This document shows positions 2,172 to 21,065 of a DNA stretch of 25,247 nucleotides, piece after piece (the first letter of the stretch is position 1; the number at the start of each line of letters is the position of its first letter). Under the pieces are notes generated by a model. It had not been told where the DNA came from, ran no database searches, and worked only from the letters and a program-made list of their open reading frames with translations. The position numbers were made by a program, and so were the translations under genes. The stretch covers positions 1-25,247 of IMG/VR virus record IMGVR_UViG_3300045107_000045, one strand, 5' to 3'. This stretch comes from a virus.

Positions 2172-3619
2172 GCAACCATCCAGAGATTGTCAGCATCTTC
2201 TGTTTCGCGCTCGCTGTATCCGCTCTGATCTTCCTTCGGCGGGGTCTTCTTTATAGGCTCGCCCGCCAACATCATGTCGAGCAGTTGCCCGACAAGACCC
2301 AGCGCGTCCACCTGGTCGTCATGCTTGCCGGCGGGGAAGCTAAGAAGCTCTGACCGCAGATTTGGAAACCACGGCGCAAACTGATCGACGTATAGTCCGT
2401 TCATCGCCATCATGCCGCGAATGGACTGCGCACGTTGTGCCTTGTCGCCCCGTGTCGGAAACGTTTCGCGATACACAAACGCATTGCGCTCACGCATCCG
2501 CCGATCAAGGAATGGCCCCACACCTGCCTTGATCTGCCCCTGTTCTTCTGCCCAGCCTATCGGCTTCCATTTCAGGACCAGATCACAGAATGCATCAATC
2601 CAAACATCGGACGACGCCTGCCTGCGCCACAAGTCCAGCAAATACATTCGGCCATCTGGATCGAGCCCAACAACGACATGGACTGTGTAGTCGCCGCCGT
2701 CCGATGTGACGGCATAGTCCGAACCGCCGTAAACCCTGAGCGTGCGCAAGTCCGGCAACTTGTCTACATGCCGCAGCCATTCGGCCCTGAAGTAGTCGCC
2801 TTCTTCTGGTGCTGGCCGCTGCTGATAAAGCGCGGACCATGTTCGCGCTGGCGTTGTCTTGCGCAATTCTATTAATTGCTGGCCGTAACCGTAATCATCA
2901 TCCCATAGTGGCGTGCCAGGAGCGCGTCCTAGCGGATCGTTATCCTCGGCTATCGCGGGAAGACTTAGAACCTCCCATTGGGAATGATTGAGTGCACGAC
3001 CTGCAAGATCATCTTCGTGCCAGCGCGTTTGAATCAAAACCTCACGCGCTCCTGGCACAAGTCGCGTACGAAAATCGTTGATGTACCAATCCCAGATACG
3101 ATCCCGTATCAGTTCCGAATCTGCATCCTGTCTTGACCTGATCGGATCGTCGATGATGCCAAGCTTGGCGCGAAATCCAGCGATACCAGTTCCAACGCCG
3201 GCCGCGTAATATTCATCTCCGTTTGAGAGTGACCATCGCCCAGCTGCTTGGCTGTCCGGCGACAGCGATAATCCGAGAACAAACGAATGTTCGGAAATCA
3301 GGTTGCGAACGCGCCGTCCCCACTTTTCGGCAAGCTCAGTCGTATGCGACGCGGCGATGATATTGCCGCCGTCTTGTGCCAAGAGCCACGGCGGGAACAG
3401 CACGCTGGCGTAAGTGGACTTGGCAGAGCCTGGCGGCATAAAAATAGCGAGCCTTTTGATCTCGCCACGCGCGACAGCCTCCAGCTTGTCGATAACCAGT
3501 TTATGATGCGGGGCGGGGTTAAACCCGCAATAGCGGCTCCACTCAGTGAGTGACCGGCGAATCGCCCGTCTCGAGAGCAGCTCCTTCGCCGCCTCCGAGC
3601 GCGATATGCGCGAGCTCAT
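2168..3619 (-). CDS. terL: Terminase large subunit
   Basis: ATPase and nuclease motor that cuts concatemeric phage DNA and pumps it into the prohead through the portal. The 483-residue length is normal for TerL. The N-terminal ATPase has a Walker A motif at about residues 62-69 (PPGSAKST) and a Walker B-like strand at LGIIDDPI. The C-terminal RNase H-like nuclease starts at GGSDYA, has an acidic EEQ segment, and ends with HDDQVDAL, supplying the expected metal-binding aspartates. The ATG at 3619 lies 77 bases inside the upstream gene. A start much further in would lose the SLTEWSRYCGF segment that usually precedes the ATPase, so the long overlap is accepted. The 3' end overlaps the portal start by 4 bases. 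Confidence 0.95.
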   Translation of the reverse strand: MSSRISRSEAAKELLSRRAIRRSLTEWSRYCGFNPAPHHKLVIDKLEAVARGEIKRLAIFMPPGSAKSTYASVLFPPWLLAQDGGNIIAASHTTELAEKWGRRVRNLISEHSFVLGLSLSPDSQAAGRWSLSNGDEYYAAGVGTGIAGFRAKLGIIDDPIRSRQDADSELIRDRIWDWYINDFRTRLVPGAREVLIQTRWHEDDLAGRALNHSQWEVLSLPAIAEDNDPLGRAPGTPLWDDDYGYGQQLIELRKTTPARTWSALYQQRPAPEEGDYFRAEWLRHVDKLPDLRTLRVYGGSDYAVTSDGGDYTVHVVVGLDPDGRMYLLDLWRRQASSDVWIDAFCDLVLKWKPIGWAEEQGQIKAGVGPFLDRRMRERNAFVYRETFPTRGDKAQRAQSIRGMMAMNGLYVDQFAPWFPNLRSELLSFPAGKHDDQVDALGLVGQLLDMMLAGEPIKKTPPKEDQSGYSERETEDADNLWMVA

Positions 3620-3830
3620 CGTCTGCGAGTTCTTTCGCGATTGCCTTGCGCACCGTCATATCGACGGTCTGCGACGGCTTGCCCCAGCCACGGTCGAGCA
3701 AGGCTGTAGCGGCGGACACGCGAGCGGCAGGAGGGGCCTCAGGCTGTTGCATGATGCCGGCAAGCGTTTTGATCGCGCTTTCGGTGTAGCTGCGCGCTAA
3801 AGATCGGATATCTGTCGGTGCTTTAGCCAT
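3543..3830 (-). CDS. Small terminase-like protein
   Basis: A 95-residue protein directly upstream of terL. It is mostly helical: an N-terminal segment (ARSYTESAIKTLAGIM), a PPAARVSAATALLDRGWGKP element, and an acidic, Gly/Ala-rich tail. The AATALLDRGWGKP element is common in small proteins encoded before terL in alphaproteobacterial phages, where they are treated as small terminase or packaging-site recognition proteins. DNA binding is not proven here. There is no strong ribosome binding site before the ATG, and an intrinsic terminator ends only 32 bases upstream, so expression probably needs read-through. The last 77 bases overlap terL. Confidence 0.75.
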   Translation of the reverse strand: MAKAPTDIRSLARSYTESAIKTLAGIMQQPEAPPAARVSAATALLDRGWGKPSQTVDMTVRKAIAKELADDELAHIALGGGEGAALETGDSPVTH

Positions 3831-3861
3831 TTACGCTAATTTGGTTGTCTGATCTGATTTA

Positions 3862-3898
3862 CAAAAATAGGCCGCCAGGTCTGGGCACCTGACGGCCT
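3862..3898 (-). terminator. Intrinsic terminator at the end of the early leftward operon
   Basis: Arms at 3869-3880 (AGGCCGCCAGGT) and 3887-3898 (ACCTGACGGCCT) pair over 12 positions with one mismatch around a 6-base loop. On the minus strand the stem is followed by TATTTTTG, a proper U-tract. It sits between the 3926-4156 gene and the terminase genes, so it would separate early leftward transcripts from late genes. Confidence 0.85.
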
Positions 3899-3925
3899 TA
3901 AATCTGAACTCGGGTGTCACTTGTC

Positions 3926-10730: not shown

Positions 10731-10873
10731 GGTTCGCGCCCCTCTTGATTGCATTCGCAGGCCCACATGATCGCGGAATAGTCGGAGGCGAGCACGCCGG
10801 GAATCCAGCCGGCCGCGATGTAGCGTTCGATATCGCGCCACGTCACATAGCGATACGTGCCAGTGCGTATCAT
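10727..10873 (-). CDS. Small hypothetical protein between GcrA-like and resolvase genes
   Basis: A 48-residue protein beginning MIRTGTYRYVTWRDIERYIA and ending CECNQEGREP. Support comes from overlaps at both ends: its ATG shares ATGA with the stop of the GcrA-like gene and its TGA shares GTGA with the resolvase start. The pattern RDIERYIAAGWIPG is typical of short phage proteins, but no function is known. Confidence 0.75.
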   Translation of the reverse strand: MIRTGTYRYVTWRDIERYIAAGWIPGVLASDYSAIMWACECNQEGREP

Positions 10874-11493
10874 CGCGGCCTCGGCGCCCGTTCGTGGGCA
10901 TCGGCGGGGCGGTAGTTGATGAAAGCGCAAGCCTCGCAATACGGTAGCGTGCCGAATACGGGCTGACCGCAATACGTCATCGCGCGCGGATCGTCGCACA
11001 TCGGATTGGGGTTGCGGCAAGTCTTGGACGTGAGTGCGAAAATATCGATTCCGAGAAACTCTGCCGGCAATGGCCGCGGCTTCAGCGGCTTGGCCTTTTT
11101 CATTTTTGGCGGCACGTCGAAAGGCAGCTTGAGTTTCTTGGGCTCGCCTTTGCGGCGTAATCCGGTCGTGCGCTTGATGCCGGTCATGCGTGTTTTCAGG
11201 ACACCGGCCCGAAACAGAATGCCACATGCGGCGTTGCGCGTTATGCCGAGTTTGCACCCGATTTGCGTGTAGGATGCGCCCGACTTGTAAAGATCGATCA
11301 CGCGCGCCTTGAAATCATCTGTCCACTTGTTGGCGCGCGGCTGTTTGCGTACCGGGATGCCAAGGCGGCGTCGCGCAGCTTCAACGCCTTTTGCGGTCAT
11401 GCCCACATCGCGCGCAATGTCCGCAATAGAGACACCTGCGGTGTAGGCCTCAATAATGCGAAGATCGCGCGGTCTGAATGCGTTAGCGTTCAT
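10870..11493 (-). CDS. GcrA-family regulator with extra N-terminal HTH
   Basis: A 207-residue DNA-binding protein related to GcrA, the alphaproteobacterial cell-cycle regulator that works with sigma70 at promoters carrying CcrM-methylated GANTC. Residues 57-98 (WTDDFKARVIDLYKSGASY, GITRNAACGILFRAGV) match the GcrA helix-turn-helix, and the C-terminus (TYCGQPVFGTLPYCEACAFI, about 173-192) matches the Cys-rich GcrA end. A second HTH-like region, IADIARDVGMTAKGVEAARRRLG at 23-45, lies upstream of it, which the host protein normally lacks. The ATG at 11493 overlaps the upstream stop (ATGA). Roles could include hijacking host cell-cycle promoters or timing phage transcription. Confidence 0.82.
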   Translation of the reverse strand: MNANAFRPRDLRIIEAYTAGVSIADIARDVGMTAKGVEAARRRLGIPVRKQPRANKWTDDFKARVIDLYKSGASYTQIGCKLGITRNAACGILFRAGVLKTRMTGIKRTTGLRRKGEPKKLKLPFDVPPKMKKAKPLKPRPLPAEFLGIDIFALTSKTCRNPNPMCDDPRAMTYCGQPVFGTLPYCEACAFINYRPADAHERAPRPR

Positions 11494-12223: not shown

Positions 12224-12475
12224 TCATGCCGCGCTCTCCTGTTCGGATTGCGCGGGCTCGACCATGCCCCAGAGCGAGGCGGGAGCCGTCTTGCCTCTGG
12301 CGGCAAGGGCTCTTGTCAGCGTGACATATGTATTGGGTGGGAAGCGGCCGGATGCGTGCCAGTTATGAACCGCAGCATATTTACGGCCGGTCATTTCGGC
12401 CACCGCATGAATGCCGCCGAGCGCGTCAATCACTTCGGTCGCGGCGTTATCTGGAATTGATCGGGGTCTCGCCAT
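12224..12475 (-). CDS. Cro/YdaS-like helix-turn-helix regulator
   Basis: An 83-residue DNA-binding protein. Residues 16-57 (EVIDALGGIHAVAEMTGRK, AAVHNWHASGRFPPNTYVTL) give the helix-turn-helix of Cro/YdaS-like proteins: an ALGG entry, the turn at MTGRK, and a recognition helix with VHNWHASG. The C-terminus (APASLWGM) is also typical of the group. It is divergent from the CI-like gene with an operator-filled gap, so it should act as the Cro of this switch and be the first gene of the leftward early operon. GAGGGG lies only 4 bases before the ATG. Confidence 0.85.
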   Translation of the reverse strand: MARPRSIPDNAATEVIDALGGIHAVAEMTGRKYAAVHNWHASGRFPPNTYVTLTRALAARGKTAPASLWGMVEPAQSEQESAA

Positions 12476-12481
12476 GACCCC

Positions 12482-12560
12482 TCTATAATCTAACGTGGCT
12501 AGATAATCAAGACCCTAAAATGCTTAGGTTGAGCGAATATCTAACGAAATGCGATATTCG
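12482..12560. promoter_or_regulatory. Operator/promoter region between Cro-like and CI-like genes
   Basis: Three palindromes fill the gap: ATAATCTA-N7-TAGATAAT (12485-12507), CCTAA-N5-TTAGG (12514-12528) and CGAATATC-N11-GATATTCG (12534-12560, perfect 8-bp arms). The leftward strand reads TTGATT (12510-12505), 17 bases, TATAGA (12487-12482), a possible promoter for the Cro-like gene, although its expected start is almost at the ATG. Rightward, TTGAGC (12529-12534) and GATATT (12553-12558) with an 18-base spacer could drive the repressor. ATCTAAC occurs at 12488 and 12539 and again at 13113. Confidence 0.7.
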
Positions 12561-12565
12561 TAACG

Positions 12566-12862
12566 ATGGGACGCCCGATAGAAAAAGTGGGACCGCCAGG
12601 GTCACAAGCCGAGCGAATGCGGATACTGCGGGAGGCTATGGGTTATCAGACCCAAGCCGCCTTTGCTAAACGGTATGGCCTCGATCCGAAACGGTGGAAC
12701 CACTACGAAACGGGCCGGATCGAGGTGCCGCTTAATGTTGCCCGGATGCTGGCGCGTCAGATACCGGGCCTATCGCCCGGCTGGATCACGGACGCCGCAA
12801 CGGGCGATCTGTCGTTAGAAATGGCCCGTAAGTTGGGCGTCCTGCCTCCCGGCGCGTCCTGA
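12566..12862 (+). CDS. CI-like XRE-family repressor
   Basis: A 98-residue XRE-type repressor candidate. Residues 15-62 form the helix-turn-helix: RMRILREAMGYQTQAAFAKR, then YGLDPKRWNHYETGRIEVP with the conserved YE.GR recognition pattern. The C-terminal helix (VARMLARQIPGLSPGWITDA) fits the family; there is no LexA-like protease domain, so induction would not be by self-cleavage. No ribosome binding site precedes the ATG, and the best promoter would start about 2 bases before it, so a leaderless message is likely, as for lambda cI made from PRM. The gene is flanked by operator blocks at 12482-12560 and 13111-13166. Confidence 0.85.
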   Translation: MGRPIEKVGPPGSQAERMRILREAMGYQTQAAFAKRYGLDPKRWNHYETGRIEVPLNVARMLARQIPGLSPGWITDAATGDLSLEMARKLGVLPPGAS

Positions 12863-12987
12863 GACAGGAACGTGTCAATCAGTTCACGGGCATAAGCCAG
12901 AACAATCCGGGCGTCCGCCACGTCTGCCGGGAGCTGGGCGACTAGCTCAACCGCATGTCGGCGTAGCTGACCGTCATTCGCGCGCAT
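12757..12987 (-). CDS. Possible small protein antisense to the repressor 3' end
   Basis: A 76-residue ORF convergent with the repressor and overlapping its last 106 bases. The N-terminal half (QLRRHAVELVAQLPADVADA, ARELIDTFLS) has the look of small rhizobial proteins in which a helical segment is followed by QLP.D..DA and an A..L...FL end; the C-terminal part, which lies antisense to the repressor, is low quality (PGGRTPNLRAI). A G-rich AGTGAGG stretch lies upstream of the ATG. If real, it may have ended earlier before the overlap arose. Confidence 0.4.
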   Translation of the reverse strand: MRANDGQLRRHAVELVAQLPADVADARIVLAYARELIDTFLSQDAPGGRTPNLRAISNDRSPVAASVIQPGDRPGI

Positions 12988-13110
12988 TCCCTCGCCCCCC
13001 TCACTGTGATTTCTATCCTAACGCTAGCATTTTAATCCTATCGTGTCACGCTCTTTATTATGGCGAAATTTTTGCGGCCGTGGCGGGGGGTGCGGCATCC
13101 TGCCGCACCA

Positions 13111-13166
13111 TTATCTAACAAGATAAGAAAATATGGCTTGATTATCTAAAGCATTTAGATTAGTGT
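13111..13166 (+). promoter_or_regulatory. Second operator and rightward early promoter
   Basis: Two palindromes are present: TTATCT-AACA-AGATAA (13111-13126) and ATCTAAA-GCA-TTTAGAT (13144-13160). TTGATT (13138-13143) with TAGTGT 17 bases on (13161-13166) is a possible promoter overlapping the second palindrome. The string TTGATTATCTA-N7-TAGATTA at 13138-13162 matches the leftward promoter (12510-12486, minus strand) with identical spacing. It should control the rightward operon starting at 13194. Confidence 0.7.
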
Positions 13167-13193
13167 CTCCCCATCGAGCACGGGAGACGACAG

Positions 13194-13385
13194 ATGACCA
13201 ATTACGAAACAGTGTGCATCACTCGCTGCGGCTTCAACTTCCTGCATAGCGAAGGCGTTGACCTCGCCGCCCGTGTTGTTCGGCATCGTTATGAAAAGCG
13301 CGAGGACGGCAGCACCTTCCAATCTCTGCAAGACCAGCGTGATGCGCAGGTTCTGTTTATCCCCCGTTTTGGGGTGTGGGGGTGA
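13194..13385 (+). CDS. Small hypothetical protein, first gene of the rightward early operon
   Basis: A 63-residue protein starting MTNYETVCITRCGFNFLH. It has alternating hydrophobic residues and a charged middle (VVRHRYEKREDGSTF), with no membrane segment. GGGAGA lies eight bases before the ATG. As the first gene behind the rightward early promoter, it is placed where lambda has N, but no arginine-rich N-like motif is evident. The function is unknown. Confidence 0.7.
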   Translation: MTNYETVCITRCGFNFLHSEGVDLAARVVRHRYEKREDGSTFQSLQDQRDAQVLFIPRFGVWG

Positions 13386-13440: not shown

Positions 13441-13499
13441 TCAAAATACCGGCCGCCTAACCGCCACAGGAACACAAAGCCGAGCACGGGAGACGACAG

Positions 13500-14278
<779 letters not shown>

Positions 14279-18818: not shown

Positions 18819-19538
18819 ATGGCAGAAAACAGCAAAATCGAATGGACGCACCACACCTTCAACCCGTGGGTCGGGTGCGCGAAGGTCAGCCCGGCGTGCG
18901 ACCGTTGTTACGCTGAGGGCTGGGCCAAACGGTCTGGTCTGGTGGAGTGGGGGCCACACGCGGAACGCAGGCGGACATCGGCGGAAAACTGGAAGAAGCC
19001 GCACGCGTGGAATCGCGCGGCGGCGAAGGCCGGAACCCGCGCCCGCGTGTTTTGTGCGTCCTTGGCTGACTGGCTGGACAATCAGGTCGATATGGACTGG
19101 CGCGACGATCTGGCAAACCTGATCGAAGCGACACCTCAACTCGACTGGCTCCTGCTCACGAAGCGCATCGGCAATTGGGACAAGTACGCCCCTTGGCCCG
19201 ATGACGACGTGCCGGGCAACGTATGGCTCGGAATCACCTGCGGTTCTCAGGAAGAATACGACCGCGACTGGCCAAAGCTGCTGGCGGTCCAGAACAGCAA
19301 CGTGAAGTTCATCAGCTATGAGCCGGCAATAGGACCGTTGCGTATCCAGTCCGGCCCAACGCCGGACTGGATCATCTGCGGCGGCGAGAGCGGCCATGGC
19401 GCGCGCCTGATGGACCCACAATGGGCGCGGGACCTTCGTGACGACTGCAAGGACGAAGGCATCGCATTCTTTATGAAGCAGATGACCGGAAAGAAGCCGA
19501 TTCCCGACGATCTGCTGATCCGGCAGTTTCCGCGCTAA
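18819..19538 (+). CDS. Phage Gp37/Gp68 (DUF5131) protein
   Basis: A 239-residue protein. SKIEWTHHTFNPWVGC, then C20-x6-C27-x2-C30-Y (CAKVSPACDRCYAE), is the family signature and resembles an iron-sulfur site of radical-SAM-like enzymes. It continues with VFCASLADWLD, QLDWLLLTKRIGNWDKYAPW, VWLGITCGSQEEYDRDWPKL, KFISYEPAIGPLRI and WIICGGESGHGARLMDPQWA, all in family order; the end is FFMKQMTGKKPIPDDLLIRQ. Length is normal. It is frequently carried by phages and mobile elements; a role in nucleic-acid modification or repair is suspected but not proven. A 271-codon minus-strand ORF over it is a shadow. Confidence 0.92.
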   Translation: MAENSKIEWTHHTFNPWVGCAKVSPACDRCYAEGWAKRSGLVEWGPHAERRRTSAENWKKPHAWNRAAAKAGTRARVFCASLADWLDNQVDMDWRDDLANLIEATPQLDWLLLTKRIGNWDKYAPWPDDDVPGNVWLGITCGSQEEYDRDWPKLLAVQNSNVKFISYEPAIGPLRIQSGPTPDWIICGGESGHGARLMDPQWARDLRDDCKDEGIAFFMKQMTGKKPIPDDLLIRQFPR

Positions 19539-19554: not shown

Positions 19555-19833
19555 ATGACTGACACACCGACCATGACCCGCAAGACTGAGCGCCGGCACC
19601 GCGCAAAGGCGGGCATGGGCGTCTATGTCACCGATCAGGAATTGATCGAGTACCTGGGCCTGCCTGCCGACATTGCGCGCCGGGCGATCCAGCACCTTGA
19701 CCATAATCCACGGCTAGGTTTCCCCCGGAAACAGCCTTTTTGGGGGGATAGGCGCTACCTGCCAGCTATCCAGAAATGGCTTGACGCGCACAATGGGCTT
19801 AAAATCGACGACCCAAAACGGAGATCGTCATGA
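19555..19833 (+). CDS. Excisionase-like winged-helix protein
   Basis: A 92-residue basic protein immediately before int, with a 4-base overlap (ATGA). TDQELIEYLGLPADIARRAI is a helix-turn-helix, followed by the wing region LGFPRKQPFWGDRRYLPAIQ and a final helix. Small proteins of this form placed before the integrase in rhizobial phages are taken to be Xis-type directionality factors. The start is uncertain: ATG 19555 has a weak ribosome binding site, while ATG 19615 has AAAGG five bases upstream and would remove the basic N-terminal tail (RKTERRHRAKAG). Confidence 0.8.
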   Translation: MTDTPTMTRKTERRHRAKAGMGVYVTDQELIEYLGLPADIARRAIQHLDHNPRLGFPRKQPFWGDRRYLPAIQKWLDAHNGLKIDDPKRRSS

Positions 19834-21065
19834 ACCGCAAGCCACCCAAGATTACGAACGCGCCGGGCATCAATTGGATGCCGCGCAAAGACGGGCAATG
19901 GAAGGCGCTATGGCGAGCGCGGGCCGATCTGGTAGAGCGCGGCTACCGTCCAAAGTCTGTCGGCATCTGGATCGGCACACCGGACGAATTGGACGAGCCA
20001 AACATCCTATGGATACAGCAACGCGCCAACGATCTGCAAAATGACATGCTGGTGTGGGGCCGCGGTGGACTGCCGACGATCGCCGGCACGTTTGATGGAT
20101 CGCTGGATTCGCTGGCGATGGCCTACCGGATGGACCCGGATTCGCCCTACCACAAAAAGCGGTATGTCACCCGCAAGTTTTACGACCGCCTGATCGGAGT
20201 CCTGTCGGACCGTCACGGCTCGGAAATGATTGAGGACATCAAAGGCCGCACCGTCCTGCGCTGGCATGAAGAATGGTCAGCCGGCGGGCGTGTCGCGATG
20301 GGTCATGCACTCGTCGGGATGCTGCGCACTCTCGTCAATTTCGGCGTTACGATCCTTGAAAGCGAGGAATGTGAACGCTTGGCGCTGGTCTTGTCCAAGC
20401 AACGCTTTGCGATGGCGAAGCCGCGAAGCGAGGCGCTGACGGCGGACATGGCGAACGCGATCCGCGCGAAGGCGCACGAGACGGGGCGGCCGTCGATTGC
20501 TCTTGCTCAAGCTCTGCAATTCGAGCTGATGCTGCGCCAGAAGGACGTAATCGGGGAATGGGTGCCGATTGCCGAGCCCGGCGTGTCCGACGTTACAAAC
20601 GATGTCGGCTCGAAATGGCTGCGCGGGCTGCGCTGGGAGGAGATCGACCAGAATCTGGTGTTGCGCCACGTCACCAGCAAACGCGGCAAGCCGATTGAGG
20701 TCTGCCTACGCGACGCACCGATGGTGATGGAGGAGCTGACAAAGCAATTCCCGAACGGCCTGCCCGCGTCGGGCCCGGTGATCCTCTATGAAAAAACCGG
20801 CAAGCCGTGGAACCAGACCTATTTTAGGCAAGCATGGCGTGACATCGCCAACGAGTGCGGCGTTCCCAAGACGGTGCGGAATATGGACTCGCGCGCCGGA
20901 GCAATTACTGAGGCGACCGATGCCGGGGCCGATCTTGAGCATGTCCGGCACGCGGCGACGCATAGCGACATCGGCATGACGCAGCGGTACTCCCGAGGCG
21001 ATGCCGGGAAGACCGCAAACGTGATGCGGCTGCGGTCAGAATATCGGAACAGGAAGCGAACCTGA
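19830..21065 (+). CDS. int: Tyrosine-type integrase
   Basis: A 411-residue site-specific recombinase that integrates the phage at attB and, with Xis, excises it. The C-terminal catalytic domain has the first Arg in LMLRQKDVIGEW (about 233), Lys in TSKRGKP, R355 in MDSRAGAIT, H378 in AATHSD and nucleophile Y387 in TQRYSR. At the position of the usual HxxR His there is Asp (DSR), as in the rhizobial-phage branch that typically has DARAGGITEA. The N-terminal 90 residues contain a DNA-arm-binding type fold (WMPRKDGQWKALWRARADLV). GGAG lies six bases before the ATG. The integrase is followed directly by a nested inverted repeat that could be attP. Confidence 0.95.
   Translation: MNRKPPKITNAPGINWMPRKDGQWKALWRARADLVERGYRPKSVGIWIGTPDELDEPNILWIQQRANDLQNDMLVWGRGGLPTIAGTFDGSLDSLAMAYRMDPDSPYHKKRYVTRKFYDRLIGVLSDRHGSEMIEDIKGRTVLRWHEEWSAGGRVAMGHALVGMLRTLVNFGVTILESEECERLALVLSKQRFAMAKPRSEALTADMANAIRAKAHETGRPSIALAQALQFELMLRQKDVIGEWVPIAEPGVSDVTNDVGSKWLRGLRWEEIDQNLVLRHVTSKRGKPIEVCLRDAPMVMEELTKQFPNGLPASGPVILYEKTGKPWNQTYFRQAWRDIANECGVPKTVRNMDSRAGAITEATDAGADLEHVRHAATHSDIGMTQRYSRGDAGKTANVMRLRSEYRNRKRT

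Follow-up and report, generated by a model that had tools for sequence, protein, structure and literature searches.

A predicted lambda-like switch with matched operators at two early promoters in a viral genome record and in related alphaproteobacterial phages

In phage lambda the cI mRNA made from PRM is leaderless. Among alphaproteobacterial temperate phages, Rhizobium phage 16-3 has a single repressor (C) which controls both PL and PR (PMC3694467). The telomere phage PY54 (PY54/N15 immB) carries divergent cI and cro genes with mapped leaderless mRNAs for both; its Cro occupies just one site, OR3, does not bind OL, and is not considered a repressor of its own promoter (PMC4488713). For the alphaproteobacterial temperate phage BiPBO1 of Brucella the authors could not predict operators (PMC4729917), and a paper on Bradyrhizobium prophages nowhere mentions a repressor or operator (PMC10127595). 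The operators reported here are undescribed in the papers on related or similar phages, which is weak evidence of novelty because coverage of the literature was partial.

We analyzed a window of 25,247 bases, which is an entire virus record and possibly a fragment. Judging from the sequence it very probably contains the immunity and control region of a temperate phage, in which a CI-like and a Cro-like protein would bind one palindrome and both early promoters would be repressed. The genes concerned are the following.

12224..12475, minus strand: cro-like gene, 83 aa, heading the leftward (PR-like) operon; family profile, homologous and divergent from ci in relatives
12566..12862, plus strand: ci-like repressor gene, 98 aa; Pfam HTH_31 (1.6e-7, residues 15–64)
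12757..12987, minus strand: g3, 76 aa, undescribed; position conserved across about a dozen loci, family matches weak or absent
13194..13385, plus strand: first gene of the rightward (PL-like) operon, 63 aa, with GGGAG before it; no family match
19830..21065, plus strand: tyrosine integrase on the PL side; PHROG integrase (6e-15)

The left-hand gene had been called Cro-like in a first-pass annotation made from the letters of the window, and the profile of its family bears this out: against the whole PDB it matched only three sequences, namely two Cro proteins (3bd1, 7.5e-5; 1rzs, P22 Cro, 0.03) and XPH1 (5w8y, 6.6e-4). For the window protein itself Pfam YdaS_toxin and P22_Cro both stayed below the cut-off, with 20.5 bits for PF15943 (YdaS toxin) at a cut-off of 30. 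From its relation to the solved Cro proteins the product appears to be a Cro of the P22/Xfaso1 type. The match of the Cro-like family to YdaS_toxin, sub-threshold for the window protein, would also suit a divergent toxin-antitoxin or defence pair of the YdaS/YdaT kind, whose operators would serve autoregulation. We consider this very unlikely, since P22 Cro was matched as well, the pair heads a replication and packaging operon, and a second set of operators lies at the integrase-side operon. YdaS is itself Cro-like.

The sole domain found in the CI-like protein is HTH_31, a helix-turn-helix of the XRE type; the Pfam search returned no C-terminal dimerisation or peptidase domain of the LexA/S24 type. 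RecA-triggered self-cleavage is unlikely for a protein of 98 residues lacking a peptidase domain, and induction probably differs from the RecA-dependent cleavage of lambda. The ci proteins of relatives are 28–30% identical, encoded at the same position and short too.

Gene order fits the mirrored lambda arrangement that had been proposed for this region. Left of the left operator block follow, in order, the cro-like gene, an unknown gene, and genes for a GcrA-like protein, a RuvC-like resolvase and a Sak4-like annealing protein; the leftward genes continue with a Cas4-type exonuclease, primase/helicase, terminase and portal. Recombination, primase, terminase and portal functions are thereby on the left, PR-like side. 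To the right of the right block lie small genes, a phrog_2045 protein and the integrase, on the PL-like side, as is the integrase in the related phage loci L114 and L180. The GcrA-like gene (10870–11493, minus strand; Pfam 6e-17) encodes a phage-borne cell-cycle regulator, homologues of which are annotated also in pUSDA31-2 and Pam5. The gene matching phrog_2045 (18819–19538, plus strand; 2e-80) belongs to a phage family of unknown function.

The promoter and operator elements between and beside these genes are listed next.

12482..12487, minus strand: candidate −10 box TATAGA of PR; sequence
12488..12504, minus strand: OR1 operator ATCTAGCCACGTTAGAT, filling the 17-bp PR spacer; sequence, scans and relatives
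12505..12510, minus strand: candidate −35 box TTGATT of PR; TTG upstream of operators across the family
12529..12534, plus strand: candidate −35 box TTGAGC of the ci promoter (PRM-like); sequence
12535..12559, plus strand: OR2, a GAATATC-N11-GATATTC palindrome with the degenerate operator ATCTAACGAAATGCGAT at 12539–12555; 2 mismatches to ATCTA-N7-TAGAT
12553..12558, plus strand: candidate −10 box GATATT of the ci promoter; sequence
13113..13129, plus strand: OL2, degraded operator ATCTAACAAGATAAGAA, 31 bp upstream of OL1; 2 mismatches
13138..13143, plus strand: candidate −35 box TTGATT of PL; as for PR, compare TTGCAT, TTGCAC and TTGACG in relatives
13144..13160, plus strand: OL1 operator ATCTAAAGCATTTAGAT, filling the PL spacer; sequence, scans and relatives
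13161..13166, plus strand: candidate −10 box TAGTGT of PL; TAGGTT, TACGCT and TAGAAC at the same place in relatives

Two blocks on opposite strands with identical spacing had been claimed, and sequence, mismatch scan and shuffles all confirm them. The left block on the minus strand (12510–12486) reads TTGATTATCTAGCCACGTTAGATTA and the right block on the plus strand (13138–13162) reads TTGATTATCTAAAGCATTTAGATTA, the differences between these 25 bases being confined to the 7-base centre. With up to three mismatches allowed the 25-base block has two matches in 25,247 bases and none in 100 dinucleotide shuffles. Exact ATCTA-N7-TAGAT occurs in the whole record at the two blocks only, and the composite of TTGATT, ATCTA-N7-TAGAT and a hexamer is present in exactly two copies, which face outward and flank the block with the CI-like gene. 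As had also been noticed, each TTGATT is followed 17 bases on by a possible −10 box, TATAGA at 12487–12482 and TAGTGT at 13161–13166. In the leftward arrangement, TTGATT-ATCTAGCCACGTTAGAT-TATAGA, as in the rightward one, TTGATT-ATCTAAAGCATTTAGAT-TAGTGT, the 17-base spacer is exactly the operator. TAGTGT is weak when compared to the E. coli consensus. A scan for promoters of the E. coli consensus type detected neither PR nor PL, which we regard as uninformative; the sole site that it flagged lies on the minus strand inside OL.

Distant relatives were found by tblastn on phages and plasmids and by alignment (profile) scans; when viral contigs were scanned with the ci or cro sequence by itself there were no matches. 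The Cro-like protein led to about 25 loci in phages, a plasmid, viral contigs and alphaproteobacterial genomes, in which the divergent cro/ci pair is kept. These are Bradyrhizobium phage ppBeUSDA76-1 (L114), the B. elkanii plasmid pUSDA31-2 (L115), IMG/VR contigs (L116–L122), a Bradyrhizobium genome (L123) and about 15 more loci from genomes of the order and class of the latter. With g3 as the sole query two further loci came up, in Bradyrhizobium phage ppBdUSDA122-1 (L180) and in Pseudanabaena phage Pam5 (L181). In L185 and L186 ci and g3 are present and cro was not recognised. The Cro-like profile also matches inside open frames of 450–530 residues in L151, L153–L156, L158–L160 and others (small alphaproteobacterial genomes). 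A search of IMG/VR for TTGATTATCTA-N7-TAGAT gave 111 stretches, which were set aside: none of those fetched encodes a relative of the Cro-like protein, the CI-like protein or the neighbours tested, and they look like chance occurrences.

A search for the motif next to cI/cro pairs of related phages had been suggested as a check of the first-pass annotation. We therefore determined at each of 22 loci the best palindrome common to the cro-ci gap and the first kilobase downstream of ci and compared its score with 300 dinucleotide shuffles. Matching the OR of each locus with downstream DNA from a different one was tried as a null and dropped in favour of the shuffles; it is poor because words of the TTCAC/ATCAC type are common to many relatives. 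In the window the common palindrome scores 22 with a maximum of 20 in the shuffles (p about 0.003). Over all loci it is significant (p<0.05) in 14 of 22 and not significant in the other 8, with a Fisher combined p of 2e-17, although L138, L139 and L142 are near-identical and the 22 loci hence not all independent. A resemblance of AT-rich promoter words by chance could draw on the observation that the ATCTAAC half-sites alone are not enriched (with one mismatch allowed the 7-mer is no more frequent than expected), but these p values and the absence of the block from all 100 shuffles make it hardly credible.

The operator words are CGTCAA-N5-TTGACG, TTCAC-N5-GTGAA, TACAC-N5-GTGTA, TTCAGA-N3-TCTGAA, TCTCAC-N5-GTGAGA, CAACAT-N5-ATGTTG and others, and the word is usually specific to the locus. 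In ppBdUSDA122-1, which was retrieved by g3 and not by cro, the common palindrome is TACAC-N5-GTGTA (p 0.015). Relatives repeat what had been proposed for the window, an operator common to two outward promoters on either side of the CI-like gene, with mostly different words on the two-sided palindromes and the layout kept. This conserved layout with changing words, seen in more than a dozen related phages and prophages, strongly supports a real lysis/lysogeny switch of a familiar kind. Going by the sequence alone, the palindrome could also be bound by some regulator of the host, or be a DNA element that has nothing to do with the regulators of the phage, close to two promoters; we hold this to be highly improbable, as its two positions stay fixed and the word is mostly a different one in each phage, which fits a regulator/operator pair carried by the phage itself and not a single host protein.

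For Pam5 the common-palindrome score did not reach significance (p 0.14). By eye its two blocks have AGTTGCGCAWCT in common, and neither of the two HTH genes beside this motif is matched well by the cro or ci profile. At about 2900–3900 of this locus g3 and the OR/OL motif are retained next to unmatched HTH regulators, which suggests that in Pam5 the regulator pair may have been replaced within a fixed layout.

Promoter geometry is likewise kept across the family. A TTG located 6–11 bases upstream of the 15-bp operator core is found on the predicted strand in 24 of 29 operators and on the opposite strand in 3 of 29 (p 2e-16), where PL cores were picked by hand if tandem copies occur. The count is conservative, since the PR operator of L133 was scored as having no TTG from the wrong copy and TTGCGAAC precedes the right one. 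The weak −10 box of PL in the window is supported by similar PL boxes in L119 (TTGCAC-N17-TAGGTT), L116 (TTGCAT-N17-TACGCT) and L120 (TTGCAT-N17-TAGAAC). From the operator core to the ATG of cro we counted 13 bases in the window, L115, L116, L121, L132, L137 and L180 and 10–16 bases in L114, L120, L134, L138 and L150; in L119, by contrast, the cro leader is longer. Because the ATG lies only 10–16 bases past the operator, transcription of cro is predicted to begin on or close to the A of the ATG (12475 in the window), implying a nearly leaderless cro mRNA.

On the PL side a 22-bp ribosome-binding/start cassette, CGAGCACGGGAGACGACAGATG, is repeated exactly at 13175–13196 and 13481–13502, preceding the first two genes of the operon; no such repeat occurred in 100 shuffles. 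PL leaders of the window (13173–13178), L115, L116 and L132 have (cag)ATCGAG or ATCGGG ahead of their first start codon, which could be a translation or antitermination signal.

Extra ATCTAAC half-sites had been placed at 12488, 12539 and 13113. The first was a misreading, as these bases form an arm of the left operator itself. The other two sites are present; rather than loose half-sites they are better described as degraded second operators with two mismatches each. The site at 13113 is best read as a degraded OL2, because its distance of 31 bp to OL1 corresponds to the spacing of the tandem OL operators in relatives (about 28–32 bp in L114, L116, L121, L133, L134, L137–L139 and L180). A second OR operator near ci is found also in L120, L138 and L139. 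In the window the site at 12539 lies within the candidate ci promoter and may be an OR2 controlling ci. This candidate promoter, TTGAGC-N18-GATATT, ends 7 nt before the ATG of ci and has the same geometry as PR; going by the position of its −10 box the ci mRNA is probably leaderless.

The CI-like gene had been placed between the blocks. It does lie there, together with g3, which had been missed. g3 is convergent with ci, overlaps its 3' end and points away from the PL operon. About a dozen loci have a g3, with the pattern LxLAxQLPxxxxEAxxVL..., between ci and OL; instances are L115:5316–5501, L116:2422–2550, L180:2965–3600 and L181:3025–3120. In ppBdUSDA122-1 it is annotated as a DUF4118-domain protein, and ppBeUSDA76-1 and its kin have an enlarged g3. 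Its product is possibly an antirepressor or exclusion protein. As a matter of speculation, g3 or another small early protein might be the antirepressor of the switch.

We propose that dimers of the CI-like and the Cro-like protein would compete for one palindrome. A dimer on ATCTA-N7-TAGAT would sit between the −35 and −10 boxes and block RNA polymerase. At PR this would keep the leftward cro, recombination, replication and packaging genes off, and at PL the rightward early genes and the integrase; in a lysogen the CI-like protein would hold both promoters shut. OR2, the degraded copy over the ci promoter, could let Cro and/or high levels of CI switch ci off. OL2 lies about three helical turns away from OL1 and probably aids binding, perhaps through cooperativity. 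The mRNA of cro, and probably that of ci, would start at or next to the start codon.

Which of the two proteins binds the palindrome was approached by comparing operators with recognition helices. Operator distance correlates with the distance of the Cro helix at r 0.23 and of the ci helix at r 0.04, neither being significant in Mantel tests over 14 loci (p 0.11 for cro, 0.40 for ci). L114 and L138 both have TTCAC-type operators and near-identical Cro helices (KPPAISNA and KSPAISNA) with different ci helices. The palindrome might on these grounds be bound by the Cro-like protein alone, the 98-aa HTH protein binding elsewhere or acting as, for instance, an antirepressor or activator; that PY54 Cro binds just one of its sites (PMC4488713) points the same way. 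We nevertheless judge this unlikely. A conserved HTH gene flanked by operators which it does not bind would be unusual, and the three loci with half-sites ending in A (the window, L116 and L119) have an arginine in the ci helix that the other compared loci lack, an observation made post hoc and confounded by kinship. Binding of both proteins to the shared palindrome is the reading we retain.

Predicted operators and promoters are now available for a group of alphaproteobacterial temperate phages. Their fixed geometry and changing word provide a natural panel for how repressor, Cro and operators shift specificity together. The locus also raises the question of how a 98-residue repressor lacking a cleavable domain gets switched off, and g3 is an undescribed conserved gene and a candidate third part of the switch. 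It is possible, though on balance rather doubtful, that these loci represent an undescribed and widespread variant of the lambda switch in alphaproteobacterial phages, with g3 as a conserved third component, small single-domain regulators, one main spacer-filling operator per promoter, leaderless regulator mRNAs, operator specificity that diversifies within a fixed geometry and, in Pam5, regulators apparently replaced by other HTH proteins.

Compared to the systems described, the window resembles lambda in that repressor and cro genes are divergent with operators between them, the same operator recurs at the early promoter on the far side, operators lie over PR, PRM and PL, cI lies between the blocks, the integrase is on the PL side and operators are 17 bp long. 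By sequence they overlap the core promoters, being placed in the −35/−10 spacer. Lambda has three operators per block, a number not required of all lambda relatives, whereas the window has one perfect and one degraded copy in each. It further differs from lambda by the 98-aa repressor without cleavable C-terminal domain, by g3 in the place of rexA/rexB, by recombination genes on the PR side, by a Cro of P22/Xfaso1 type and by the predicted leaderless cro. The two-sided repression by one repressor proposed for the window is shared, by its published description, with phage 16-3, and the predicted start geometry of cro and ci is like that of the mapped cro and cI starts of PY54 (PMC4488713). Also close are ppBeUSDA76-1, ppBdUSDA122-1 and pUSDA31-2, which have homologous cro, ci and g3, the same arrangement and palindromes common to OR and OL, and differ in their operator words (TTCAC-, TACAC- and ATCAC-N5, respectively).
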